Of a stretch of DNA of 46,572 nt, positions 19,474-27,113 are shown one piece after another (position 1 is the stretch's first letter; each line of letters begins with the position of its first letter). This DNA is from an uncultured Blautia sp. (GTDB taxonomy: Bacteria; Bacillota; Clostridia; Lachnospirales; Lachnospiraceae). The notes beneath the pieces are model-generated. The model made no database searches, was not told the origin of the DNA, and saw only the letters and a list, made by a program, of their open reading frames with translations. The stretch is taken from positions 1-46,572 of the forward strand of contig USPF01000010.1 of the NCBI GenBank assembly GCA_900556555.1, written 5' to 3'. Position numbers and translations under genes: made by a program.

Positions 19474-20892
19474 ATGGGCGGAATATTTGGAGTAACCTCT
19501 AAGTCCAGTTGTACCTTGGACTTATTTTTCGGAACAGACTACCATTCTCATTTAGGTACCAGACGAGGGGGGATGGCCGTATATGGCTCTCAGGGCTTTC
19601 ATCGTTCAATTCACAACATTGAAAACACACCTTTCCGTACAAAATTTGACGGAGACTTAGATGAACTGGAAGGCACTTCCGGCATTGGCTGTATCTCAGA
19701 CAACGAGCCACAGCCTCTTATGGTTCAATCACATTTAGGAACCTTTGCTATTACCACTGTAGGAAAAATCAACAACATGGATGAGCTGGTAGACATCTCG
19801 TACAAAAACGGCTGCACACATTTCCTGGAAATGAGCGGCGGCGGCATCAATCCTACGGAAATGGTGGCATCTCTTATCAACCAGCAGGCAACGATCGTAG
19901 ACGGTATCCGCTATGCACAGGAACTGATCCAGGGTTCTATGACCCTGATGCTTCTCACACCGGATGGCATCTATGCAGCTAGAGACCGTATGGGACGCAC
20001 CCCTTTGATCATTGGGCACAAAAAAGATGCACACTGTGCTTCTTTTGAAAGTTTTGCCTATCTGAACCTTGGTTATGAGACACTGCGGGAATTAGGACCA
20101 GGAGAAATCGTATTTATCACGCCAGAAGGTGTACAGACACTCTCAGAACCATTAAATGAGATGAAAATCTGTTCTTTCCTCTGGGTATATTATGGATATC
20201 CTACTTCCACCTACGAAGGAATCAATGTAGAGACCATGCGTTATGACTGCGGAAAACAACTTGCAAAACGTGATGCCATGAGAGATGATGTAAATCCTGA
20301 TCTGGTAGCTGGAATTCCGGATTCCGGAGTCCCTCATGCAATCGGCTATGCAAATGCCTCAGGTATCCCATTTGCACGTCCTTTTATTAAATACACACCA
20401 ACCTGGCCCCGTTCCTTCATGCCTACCAGGCAGGAGCAGAGAAACCTGATTGCCAAAATGAAACTGATTCCAGTGGAAGCACTCATCAAAAACCGCAGCC
20501 TGCTGCTCATTGATGACTCTATTGTCCGCGGAACACAGCTTCGGGAAACCACAGAATTCTTATACAACAGCGGAGCAAAAGAAGTACACATCCGTCCGGC
20601 ATGCCCGCCTCTGATGTTCGGCTGTCCATACTTGAATTTCTCACGTTCCAAATCTGAGATGGATCTGATTACCAGACGGATCATCGCAGAAAGAGAAGGG
20701 GAGAATGTCAGCCGTGAAGTTCTGGATACTTATGCTGATCCAAACTCTCAGAATTACAAGGAAATGCTGGAGGAAATTGCAAAAAAACTGAATTTCACTA
20801 CCCTGCATTACCACCGGCTGGATGACCTTCTGGCTTCCATTCCACTGGAGCCATGCAAGGTATGTACTTATTGCTTTAACGGAAAGAAATAA
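19474..20892 (+). CDS. PurF-like amidophosphoribosyltransferase homologue lacking the glutaminase site
   Basis: 472 residues, full PurF length. The PRTase half is intact, with the PRPP loop LLLIDDSIVRG (344-353), and four cysteines fit the 4Fe-4S ligands of the Bacillus type (C233, C384, C461, C464). The N-terminal Ntn-hydrolase half is degenerate at its active site. The protein starts MGGIFG instead of MCGI, so the nucleophile Cys is Gly; the Arg-Tyr-x-Thr glutamine site reads CISDNEP; and the HNGN oxyanion motif reads TVGKIN. It may use free ammonia, or have another role; the general database name amidophosphoribosyltransferase should be treated with care. AAGGAG precedes the ATG. Monocistronic, with a strong terminator. 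Confidence 0.85.
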   Translation: MGGIFGVTSKSSCTLDLFFGTDYHSHLGTRRGGMAVYGSQGFHRSIHNIENTPFRTKFDGDLDELEGTSGIGCISDNEPQPLMVQSHLGTFAITTVGKINNMDELVDISYKNGCTHFLEMSGGGINPTEMVASLINQQATIVDGIRYAQELIQGSMTLMLLTPDGIYAARDRMGRTPLIIGHKKDAHCASFESFAYLNLGYETLRELGPGEIVFITPEGVQTLSEPLNEMKICSFLWVYYGYPTSTYEGINVETMRYDCGKQLAKRDAMRDDVNPDLVAGIPDSGVPHAIGYANASGIPFARPFIKYTPTWPRSFMPTRQEQRNLIAKMKLIPVEALIKNRSLLLIDDSIVRGTQLRETTEFLYNSGAKEVHIRPACPPLMFGCPYLNFSRSKSEMDLITRRIIAEREGENVSREVLDTYADPNSQNYKEMLEEIAKKLNFTTLHYHRLDDLLASIPLEPCKVCTYCFNGKK

Positions 20893-20949: not shown

Positions 20950-20965
20950 ATCTTCTTTTTTGTTT

Positions 20966-20990
20966 TGGCATACCTTCATGCCACTTCTTT
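20966..20990 (+). terminator. Second terminator-like hairpin
   Basis: TGGCAT (20966-20971) pairs with ATGCCA (20978-20983) over a 6-nt loop, then CTTCTTTTTT. It may back up the stronger terminator just upstream. Confidence 0.5.
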
Positions 20991-21110
20991 TTTATAAAAA
21001 ATATCCCCCCCAGCTTTCACTCCTATCCCCAAAAAGCTATACCAAATCCATTCTGTAGCAGGCGAATCCCTATTTCAATATATTTTCAGTTGAAAATTCT
21101 ATTTTGTAAT

Positions 21111-21384
21111 TTTTAGCCTACCTTTTTCGGGCACGAATAGGTGGGTTTTCATTAATCCTAAAATTACACCTACTTATTTTGAAGACAAATAGGCTACTGA
21201 GCAAGATTTTCTAAATTTGGCCTATGTTTTCCTCTAGGAAAATAAGTGGAAAAATATAAATCCTGGGATTTAGCCTATTGAGCCCACAAAAGAGTAGGCT
21301 TATATGAGAAAAACATACAATTCCACCTATCAGGGTCACAAAAAAGTAGGTTGGAACGAAGAAATTGCGAAATTTAGCCTACTA
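21111..21384. repeat. 52-bp-period array of alternating RCCTAY half-sites
   Basis: CCTA cores at 21117, 21169, 21221, 21274, 21326 and 21378 (steps 52, 52, 53, 52, 52) alternate with the reverse-complement core TAGG (once TAAG) at 21138, 21190, 21243, 21295 and 21347. The distance from CCTA to TAGG is 21 or 22 bp and from TAGG to the next CCTA 31 bp, close to two and three helical turns. The left half-sites share ATTTAGCCTAY-like sequence; the DNA between is not conserved. Some neighbouring arms match each other beyond the core (TAGGTG with CACCTA; ATAGGC with GCCTAT; AGCCTA with TAGGCT). There is no ORF. Function unknown; protein-binding array or structured RNA are both possible. Confidence 0.8.
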
Positions 21385-21534
21385 TTTATTGTCTGGCTGA
21401 TAAAATCCAGAACCCTGTAAGTGCTTTCTACTGATGCCGGCATAGCTTTTTTTATGTCTTCCGAATACCAACATCACCTATGCCGTTTCTGCTCATAAAT
21501 TTCCTTTATCATTTTCTCCATTTCTATTCCCTTC
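21385..21534. other. Remainder of the purF-yitT gap: non-coding
   Basis: No ORF with a ribosome site. It holds a long-range inverted repeat, CGGCATAG (21438-21445) with CTATGCCG (21478-21485), and an ATGCCGGCAT palindrome followed by a T run. Nothing else was recognised. The region 20991-21110 before the array is AT-rich and also empty. Confidence 0.5.
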
Positions 21535-21582
21535 AAAAAAATATAACATCGGCTATATAAAAAGCATAGCCAATGTTATATC
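21535..21582 (-). terminator. Terminator of yitT
   Basis: ATATAACATCGGCTAT (21541-21556) pairs with ATAGCCAATGTTATAT (21566-21581) with one mismatch. Read on the minus strand it is followed by a T run (21535-21540). Confidence 0.85.
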
Positions 21583-21588
21583 TCTTTG

Positions 21589-22455
21589 TCAATAATTCGA
21601 TTTCTGATAAAACCTTCCAATCAAAGTATCTGTTTTCACCACATTCACAAACGCCTTGGGATCCGCCTCCATGACCCTCTGAATCAGTACCTTTGCCTCC
21701 ATAGTGGAAACCACAGAATAAATCATCTTACGTTTTTCATTAGAATACATTCCTGTAGCTGAAAACTCCGTGGCACTGTGATTGGTCACTTCTGCAATAG
21801 CCTGGTACACAGCCTCCGGCTCCTCTGTCACCACAAACAGCGTCACTTTCTTCTGAACCTGGTACAGCAGATGAATCACCTGGGTTGAGGTGTACTGGAA
21901 GATAATGGAATACAGTGCCTTATCCCATCCGAAAAGATATCCGGCAATCAGCAGGATTGCCACATTCCCTATCAGAATATAGTTCCACACATCTTTCTTT
22001 TTCTTCTCAGCAAAATAAATCGCAATAAAATCCGTTCCTCCTGTGGAAGCTCCGCCAAGAAGAGCAACGCTTATAGCAACTCCATTGATCAGTCCTCCGA
22101 AAATACAGATGAGCAGTATATCCTCTGTAATAGGAATTGCCGGAACCATATCTGTGATAAAACTGGTTGCCACGACCAAGATACTGGTAATCACTGTAAA
22201 ACGCTTTCCAATGGCTTTAAAACTAATGATTGCAGGAATCGCATTTAATGCCAGACTGATCGGGGAAAATGGAACTGTAATATCAAAAAACCTGTCACAG
22301 ATGGTCTGTATCAGCAAAGTCACTCCATTGAAACCACCCGGATACAATCCACCTGCCCGCACAAAGGTTTTGATATTGACTGCCATGATCACCGCACCAA
22401 TCAGTCCAAAGATTAACCGTTTACTTTCCTTTTTCCAATCAATTTTCTGACCCAA
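21589..22455 (-). CDS. yitT: YitT family membrane protein (DUF2179 C-terminus)
   Basis: 288 residues. About five or six membrane segments fill residues 12-195, with the family pieces KTFVRAGGLYPGGFNGVTLL and LLGGASTGGTDFIA. The last 75 residues form the cytoplasmic DUF2179 domain (VTLFVVTEEPEAVYQAI to VKTDTLIGRFYQ). Function is unknown in the literature I know. The start codon is TTG at 22453-22455, with GAGG 8 nt upstream and no better ATG nearby. It follows ddh by 26 bp on the same strand. Confidence 0.88.
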   Translation of the reverse strand: MGQKIDWKKESKRLIFGLIGAVIMAVNIKTFVRAGGLYPGGFNGVTLLIQTICDRFFDITVPFSPISLALNAIPAIISFKAIGKRFTVITSILVVATSFITDMVPAIPITEDILLICIFGGLINGVAISVALLGGASTGGTDFIAIYFAEKKKKDVWNYILIGNVAILLIAGYLFGWDKALYSIIFQYTSTQVIHLLYQVQKKVTLFVVTEEPEAVYQAIAEVTNHSATEFSATGMYSNEKRKMIYSVVSTMEAKVLIQRVMEADPKAFVNVVKTDTLIGRFYQKSNY

Positions 22456-26210: not shown

Positions 26211-26924
26211 TTATTTATTTTTATTTACGATTCTTGTCTCATAAGTACCTGTTTCAATATCAATAAAACGTACAAATAAAGAAACTTTATTGTCTTCATT
26301 CAGACCTTCCCATACTTCTTTGGTAAAGGCATCAATGTCATTTGGGATTCCCACTAACTTCGGTTCTCCCTCAAAACTTGGAAGAGGATTTCCGTCATGC
26401 ATATAAGTGTGAATGAAATGTCCTTCTCCGGCAACAGGATTTTCGTATGCAAAGGTATAACGGTTACATGCATCTGGATTTCCATTATTGCTCTTTAAGA
26501 TAGACATTGCGTAATTATATTTTCCGTTTTCTACATGCATAACCCCAGAAATACGAGGTGTGTAGTTTGGAGCATCCGGCTCAAACTCACGGCATCTTAA
26601 AGACTGCTCAAAAGTCATCTGTTTATCCATTCCTTCATAAATGGTATCTGTCTGGTCTCCGTTTGTCACAATTGTCTTGTTTCCTAATACACGTACTGGT
26701 GCATAAATAATCAGGCTTGGGTCTACCAGTTTGGAAGGATCAAACGCCTGTGTGCGGATTCCCTGTCCTTCTTCTACAAAGACACGGTTTCTGCTGTTTT
26801 CACTTCTTCCCATGATAAAGTATGCAGCTACTGCCTTTTTCCCATCCTCTGATTTTCCCAGAACAATGCCGCGTCCTGGATAAGCATTTTCCTTTAATTC
26901 GTTTACCAGTGATAACATTTCCAT
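26211..26924 (-). CDS. purO: IMP cyclohydrolase, PurO (archaeal) type
   Basis: 237 residues. PurO closes FAICAR to IMP, the last step of purine synthesis, and is best known in archaea. It is recognised from the N-terminal NELKENAYPGRGIVLGKSEDG, YFIMGRSENSRNRVF and NGDQTDTIYEG, an Ntn-like fold. Start ATG 26922-26924: AAAGGAG lies 9 nt upstream. The reading frame stays open for a further 59 codons upstream, but that stretch is the ZTP riboswitch and leader, not protein. Directly upstream of purH, so the two together replace bifunctional PurH. Confidence 0.88.
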   Translation of the reverse strand: MEMLSLVNELKENAYPGRGIVLGKSEDGKKAVAAYFIMGRSENSRNRVFVEEGQGIRTQAFDPSKLVDPSLIIYAPVRVLGNKTIVTNGDQTDTIYEGMDKQMTFEQSLRCREFEPDAPNYTPRISGVMHVENGKYNYAMSILKSNNGNPDACNRYTFAYENPVAGEGHFIHTYMHDGNPLPSFEGEPKLVGIPNDIDAFTKEVWEGLNEDNKVSLFVRFIDIETGTYETRIVNKNK

Positions 26925-26953
26925 AGAATCATTCTCCTTTATATTTGGAATAT

Positions 26954-26969
26954 TGCACTTTTCAGTGCA
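26954..26969 (-). promoter_or_regulatory. Small GAAA-loop hairpin before the purO ribosome site
   Basis: Minus strand TGCACT-GAAA-AGTGCA, a perfect 6-bp stem with a GNRA tetraloop. It ends about 14 nt upstream of AAAGGAG. It could tune translation or stability of the purO-purH message. Confidence 0.45.
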
Positions 26970-27012
26970 GTGAATAGATACCCGGAACAGAATAAAAAGA
27001 ATGAAAGCATAC

Positions 27013-27107
27013 AAAAAAGCCCACTGCCCGAGCATATATGCCCAGACGGTCGGCTTCCCTGGCTTATACTCCCTGTGGTCATTTCCACTTCCGTCAGTCA
27101 TATAAGC
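27013..27107 (-). ncRNA. ZTP (pfl) riboswitch with intrinsic terminator, leader of purO-purH
   Basis: The minus-strand leader begins GCTTATATGACTGACGGAA and carries the invariant segment CCGACCGTCTGGGCA, both near-identical to the ZTP riboswitch of Fusobacterium ulcerans as I remember it. P1 is GCTTATA (27101-27107) with TATAAGC (27062-27068); P2 is GTGG with CCAC (27085-27088, 27075-27078). The conserved 3' part (27040-27054) is also the 5' arm of a 15-position stem with 27019-27033 (two mismatches, several G-U), followed by six U (27013-27018). Ligand binding should hold the conserved segment in the aptamer, block the terminator and allow expression when ZMP/ZTP builds up. Confidence 0.92.
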
Positions 27108-27113
27108 ACTTAA

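Follow-up and report, generated by a model that had tools for sequence, protein, structure and literature searches.

A helix-phased array of inverted half-sites in an uncultured Blautia sp.: a probable solo array from a proposed array/nuclease system

The stretch of DNA analyzed here, called the window (46,572 nucleotides of contig USPF01000010.1 from an uncultured Blautia sp.), carries an array of eleven alternating half-sites in the gap between two genes. Its most likely reading is that of a solo array from an array/nuclease system. We consider it probable that it is a solo copy from a family of arrays bound by a protein of ~265-275 amino acids with a nuclease domain, a reading in which binding, gene control, and nuclease-driven spread are the proposed parts. 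The array belongs to a large, apparently undescribed family of helix-phased DNA arrays. The features of the locus are as follows.

19474 to 20892, plus strand: flanking gene, PurF-like, with a GATase_7 domain and a phosphoribosyltransferase domain just under the cut-off
21111 to 21384, no strand: phased array of 11 alternating half-sites with a period of 52 bp, read as a solo array
21117 to 21120, plus strand: half-site F1, core CCTA
21138 to 21141, minus strand: half-site R1, core TAGG
21169 to 21172, plus strand: half-site F2, core CCTA
21190 to 21193, minus strand: half-site R2, core TAGG
21221 to 21224, plus strand: half-site F3, core CCTA
21243 to 21246, minus strand: half-site R3, degenerate core TAAG
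21274 to 21277, plus strand: half-site F4, core CCTA
21295 to 21298, minus strand: half-site R4, core TAGG
21326 to 21329, plus strand: half-site F5, core CCTA
21347 to 21350, minus strand: half-site R5, core TAGG
21378 to 21381, plus strand: half-site F6, core CCTA
21589 to 22455, minus strand: flanking gene, YitT/DUF2179 membrane protein, convergent with the PurF-like gene

All eleven cores lie where the initial annotation had placed them, ten of them exact (CCTA or TAGG) and one TAAG. The steps from CCTA to TAGG are 21, 21, 22, 21, and 21 bp, the steps from TAGG to CCTA are 31 bp throughout, and successive CCTA cores are 52, 52, 53, 52, and 52 bp apart. The half-site had been described as RCCTAY. 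Its core stands, but the conserved site seems to be longer and to extend outward (for example, TTTAGCCTAY), so that half-site centers would be nearly even, ~26 bp apart. That such phased arrays might arise by chance had been raised as an objection. Chains were built from exact cores with steps of 20-22 and 30-32 bp, or of 51-54 bp across one skipped site; the longest in the window array is 10, versus 3 at most in first-order Markov copies (5000 of the 701-bp region and 200 of the whole window). A five-half-site pattern gave two matches in the window and none in 100 dinucleotide shuffles. As had been noted, the array sits between two genes, in a 696-bp gap, and is clear of ORFs, as none of at least 80 amino acids overlaps positions 21111-21384. 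The array is absent from the tandem-repeat output of TRF at score 40.

The initial annotation called for a search of related genomes for arrays with preserved spacing, and such arrays exist. A scan with the five-half-site pattern of one genome per species (84,980 species) matched 31 stretches. They come from nine genomes, most of which belong to Lachnospiraceae, and a single genome often has many: an uncultured Lachnospiraceae MAG (12), Candidatus Colinaster (7), Virgibacillus MSJ-26 (3), Pseudobutyrivibrio MZ8 (2), Eubacterium UBA3279 (2), Candidatus Scatonaster (2), and Pseudobutyrivibrio MD2005, Gracilibacillus, and Bifidobacterium (1 each). In the 25 of 31 stretches whose layouts were drawn, each genome has typical outward-extended half-sites, including ACTGCCTA, TGACGCCTA, GGCCTA, AGCCTAC, and ACCCCTA. 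The Bifidobacterium stretch, which lies inside an ORF, looks like a chance match, and the Gracilibacillus stretch has a layout different from that of the other arrays. Of 397 genomes from the family, just 2 match a shorter, four-half-site pattern; thus, the CCTA core is itself rare. We also observed intergenic tandem arrays in Gracilibacillus oryzae (L172 and L173) with a 52-bp or related period and with GATAGG and CCTATC sites that we assign to another phase.

Some arrays are evidently copies of others. In UBA3279, one solo array is an inverted copy of another; they are 84% identical over 368 bp, and on one side the identity stops at the array edge. The arrays of the MAG designated G003 are also copies of one another, with longer common flanks.

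In three genomes, a gene adjoining an array encodes the same uncharacterised protein of ~270 amino acids, and this is the sole ORF family near arrays that is common to three genomes, the other shared families occurring in two genomes each. The linked gene is present in all six array genomes besides Virgibacillus, Gracilibacillus, and Bifidobacterium, compared with 83 of 250 in the family at large. The protein (~265-275 amino acids) is predicted to be helical in its N-terminal part, with a PD-(D/E)XK-type nuclease domain at the C-terminus. The motif SKxE..DF..EH is found in 89 of 89 genes, and the catalytic-type residues E162, D193, E208, and H209 are invariant in 77 of 77. Its structure was modeled with a pLDDT of 92.5. 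The structural relatives retrieved (I-Bth0305I, Bax1, and TnsA) resemble the C-terminal nuclease part only. The same is true of the sequence matches, which are PADLOC HEAT_CxxC_PDDEXK (three linked proteins; E values of 5.3e-6, 0.0036, and 2.8e-8) and PDC-S68, a model that has no description (1.1e-24 to 1.3e-29). For the N-terminal part, generic coiled coils reach Z scores as high as those of the nuclease matches. Foldseek gave no match to any part of the protein below an E value of 0.005. We know of no arrays associated with I-Bth0305I, Bax1, TnsA, HEAT_CxxC_PDDEXK, or PDC-S68. The protein family has at least 2868 homologues, with no Pfam domain among the 120 matches listed. A further genome, G444, yields sixteen matches, almost all to the nuclease part alone and in open frames of ~150-360 amino acids, which possibly represent a sister family.

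A phage or plasmid element was considered and provisionally rejected: no phage DNA matches positions 20950-21590, no viral contig contains the four-half-site pattern, and no relative of the linked protein was confirmed among viral contigs. Eight plasmid records match the protein, none covering 80% of it. Three phage records match, of which MT839528.1 covers 78% at 37% identity. This last entry, a 4.2-kb faecal "Bacteriophage sp." sequence that carries no annotation, may be bacterial DNA.

Linkage of gene and array was assessed with genes collected by protein search alone, their flanks being read afterwards. Near-identical genes, fragments of fewer than 230 amino acids, and scores below 150 bits were dropped. 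A region was called periodic if, within 400 bp, a single lag between 30 and 111 accounted for at least 10 6-mer matches, and control windows came from the same loci, more than 1.5 kb away. With the array-scan genomes excluded, 46 of 60 genes have a periodic region upstream, 9 downstream, and 49 on either side, versus 15 of 462 controls. Without that exclusion, the upstream count is 58 among the 84 genes that have 300 bp or more of sequence on that side, leaving 26 with no periodic upstream region at the threshold used; the downstream count is 19 of 87. Conversely, the gene lies no more than 600 bp from the array in only 3 of the 31 scanned stretches, although contig ends cut many of these.

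The upstream periods of the 46 genes group near five, six, and seven helical turns: 51-54 bp in 22, 62-64 in 10, 73-75 in 7, 104-106 in 2 (perhaps double units), and other values in 5. Phasing at 10.5 bp gives R = 0.77 (n = 46), or 0.64 without periods of 50-55 bp (n = 24). For all 58 upstream periods, the optimum is broad, with R of 0.77-0.79 for turns of 10.3-10.8 bp, 0.71 at 10, 0.75 at 11, 0.53 at 9.5, and 0.60 at 12. The selection on geometry suggested earlier for the window array is supported: related arrays keep the spacing, and gene-linked periods lie near whole helical turns.

Half-sites vary from locus to locus, not only from genome to genome but also among the genes within a genome, and the gene-linked half-site can be used to find other arrays. 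A TACGGT half-site pattern taken from the gene-linked arrays of genomes G030, G079, and G037 was searched in seven genomes. It matches 20, 15, and 34 times, respectively, in these three, and 0, 1, 0, and 0 times in G053, G026, G241, and G164, which have other half-sites. The reversed pattern gives no match in the first three genomes and 1, 0, 2, and 0 in the other four. All 34 matches in G037 fall at nine places away from the gene. By simple ORF calls these places lie in gaps between ORFs, although two of them overlap an ORF, by 71 bp and 1 bp. Sites that are exact in both orientations are mostly spaced by 30-31 and 21-22 bp, as in the window. G079 has two solo places and one single match besides its gene-linked array. 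Both matched arrays of G030 begin at contig ends and so may be one and the same array. Thus, the gene-linked half-site predicts further arrays elsewhere in two of the three genomes, clearly so in G037.

Gene-linked and solo arrays share a half-site in other genomes also. One gene-linked array has the solo half-site in each of G001, G005, G006, and G007. No such array was found in G003 and G009 (11 loci examined), and in G356 the gene-linked array alone was matched. The half-sites of the window resemble those of UBA3279, whose nuclease gene L097 carries an array of this type upstream. In the window itself, a profile search of 379 ORFs found no member of the nuclease family (best E value of 1.3).

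Across 57 genes, half-site similarity and protein identity show no overall correlation (Spearman -0.02); in the 7 pairs above 60% protein identity, which are not independent, half-sites are clearly more alike. No constant partner gene of the nuclease was found. The upstream neighbors common to four to six nuclease loci are comEC-like, guaA, lysS, and rpsI genes and the gene before rpsI, as named from their sequences. The nuclease gene recurs just 3' of a comEC-like gene, rpsI, guaA, or lysS (L070, L091, L110, L127, and kin), in more than one clade except for rpsI. The tree requires three changes for the position downstream of the comEC-like gene, two for guaA, and three for lysS. The four genes 3' of rpsI fall in one clade with L097 (support of 100/99), although the bootstrap is not fully settled. 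The half-sites of the rpsI-linked genes nevertheless differ, with those of L091 and L137 partly alike.

We propose that the arrays serve as binding sites for this uncharacterised PD-(D/E)XK-type protein of Lachnospiraceae and their kin, whose gene usually lies directly beside the array and mostly 3' of it. Protomers would bind the inverted half-sites and, because the sites share one face of the helix, could come together as a nucleoprotein complex, through which the neighboring gene would be controlled. The nuclease may also act at the arrays, so that break and repair would copy them to other intergenic places. Solo arrays, including that of the window, would then be dispersed, non-autonomous copies or remnants left after gene decay. 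Gene decay can leave an array behind, as in G037, where a three-half-site match of another type lies 50 bp before an N-terminal gene fragment. In its strongest form, in which the nuclease binds its own phased half-sites, amplifies and spreads them, and forms with them a self-propagating pair that diverges fast in each lineage, the proposal is tentative, and we give it somewhat less than even weight. Two near relatives, G037 and G356, contain split nuclease-profile matches (G037:C11:62312-62967 and G356:C4:92793-93468) that are apparently decaying copies.

The protein might instead repress its own gene from an operator array, with solo arrays acting as decoys or regulatory sites that sequester the nuclease and with spread by ordinary duplication. 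Gene-linked arrays do lie mostly upstream, and in several (L096-L100, L111, and L097) 14 to ~85 bp separate the final half-site from the start codon, compared with 140-230 bp in L109, L114, and L115. Near-whole-turn spacing also suits cooperative binding. However, an operator is ill-suited to the 9 of 82 genes whose periodic region is solely downstream, and the genes on either side of solo arrays show every arrangement (of 15 called, 4 are convergent, 8 co-directional, and 3 divergent; in a separate count of 11, the numbers are 5, 5, and 1). We regard this alternative as possible but rather unlikely.

Chromosome-organising sites bound by another host protein, with the nuclease link secondary, would account for Virgibacillus MSJ-26. 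In this genome, six intergenic arrays (L166-L171) keep the 21/31 geometry with half-sites of the CCCCTA/TAGGGG type; the search for the linked nuclease found no homologue there, and no partner was found near the six arrays. A housekeeping binder would nonetheless be expected to keep one sequence, whereas half-sites vary between genomes and genes, and in several genomes the solo arrays match the array of one linked gene. The window locus also argues against such a role. Its closest relatives among the 397 genomes are G037 and G356 (81% DNA identity in the PurF-like gene). In G037, ~180 bp separate the matches to the PurF-like and YitT genes, and in G356 an ORF that we assign as asparaginase-like lies in the gap. 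Neither gap has an array, so the array is absent at this locus from the two nearest relatives found. Alignment of the window gap with that of G037 was not meaningful, and a match of a window ORF to locus L003 was rejected as shared synteny, being to an SNF-type transporter. We judge a chromosome-organising function to be improbable. The centromere-like element once suggested for the window array finds no support, as there are several arrays per genome.

The initial annotation left a choice between cooperative binding of protein and alternative RNA pairings. Geometry favors the former, and neighboring arms do not pair as a rule. Outside G003 (18 array pieces), F-R arms are no more alike than non-neighbors (mean of -0.08 of 8, p = 0.87), whereas in 21 pieces from G003, which are mutual copies, they are more alike (+0.53 of 8, p = 0.002). 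For all 39 pieces, the values are +0.25 for F-R (p = 0.016), an effect due to G003, and -0.36 for R-F (p = 0.0004). The arm likeness in the window array is 0.5 and 3.5 versus 2.5 and 4.0. That the arrays act as RNA or a single strand, by way of hairpins or a repeated RNA antitoxin as in type III toxin-antitoxin loci, is suggested by the repeats 5' of a nuclease gene, by the coupled arms of G003, and by the folding of the window array, which exceeds that of shuffles on both strands (z of -4.5 and -3.6), as inverted repeats would, but it is the least credible alternative, because periods of several lengths track the turns of DNA, a property that RNA has no need of, arms outside G003 are uncoupled, and a known RNA is rejected by the lack of any Rfam match at gathering score over the array.

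The preferred reading, that of arrays bound by the linked nuclease, recalls several known systems. Type III toxin-antitoxin loci (ToxIN) have tandem repeats directly 5' of a nuclease gene, as do these loci, but the present arrays consist of inverted DNA half-sites near whole turns, have solo copies, and are linked to a nuclease of ~270 amino acids with another predicted fold. BIMEs are clusters of alternating REPs and are likewise intergenic, with several units in alternating orientation. They differ from the present arrays, which have a half-site of ~10 bp and unrelated sequence, near-whole-turn spacing, and a sequence tied to the linked gene. REP/REPIN elements with RAYTs are short inverted repeats dispersed between genes, with specific enzyme genes near specific repeat groups (PMC3116915, PMC8266576). 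The arrays are similarly intergenic and dispersed, with a gene for a presumably cognate enzyme beside some copies. However, this enzyme is of predicted PD-(D/E)XK type, whereas RAYT is a Y1 transposase, and the units are helix-phased half-sites in long arrays. Y1_Tnp (PF01797) is present in 3 of 8 genomes and absent from the array genomes G001, G005, G006, G007, and G009. With no RAYT enzyme in five of the eight, the array system falls outside RAYT/REPIN, although it works in a somewhat similar way.

Judged by titles and the opening parts of abstracts, none of the openly accessible published papers covered describes these arrays with this protein. The array/nuclease system joins an unexplained repeat to a large protein family in a common group of gut bacteria. 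Different genes pair with different recognition sequences, so that co-change of nuclease and site specificity is testable, as is the way in which ordered repeats may spread in bacteria that lack a known transposase. For the source genome of the window, our reading predicts an array with TTTAGCCTA/CCACCTA-type half-sites next to a full-length gene from the rpsI-linked clade, and more solo arrays.

The sole Rfam match at gathering score in the window is a ZMP/ZTP riboswitch (RF01750, 59.7 bits) at positions 27033-27111 on the minus strand. It overlaps the listed start of the ORF at 26211-27101, whose true start codon probably lies further downstream.
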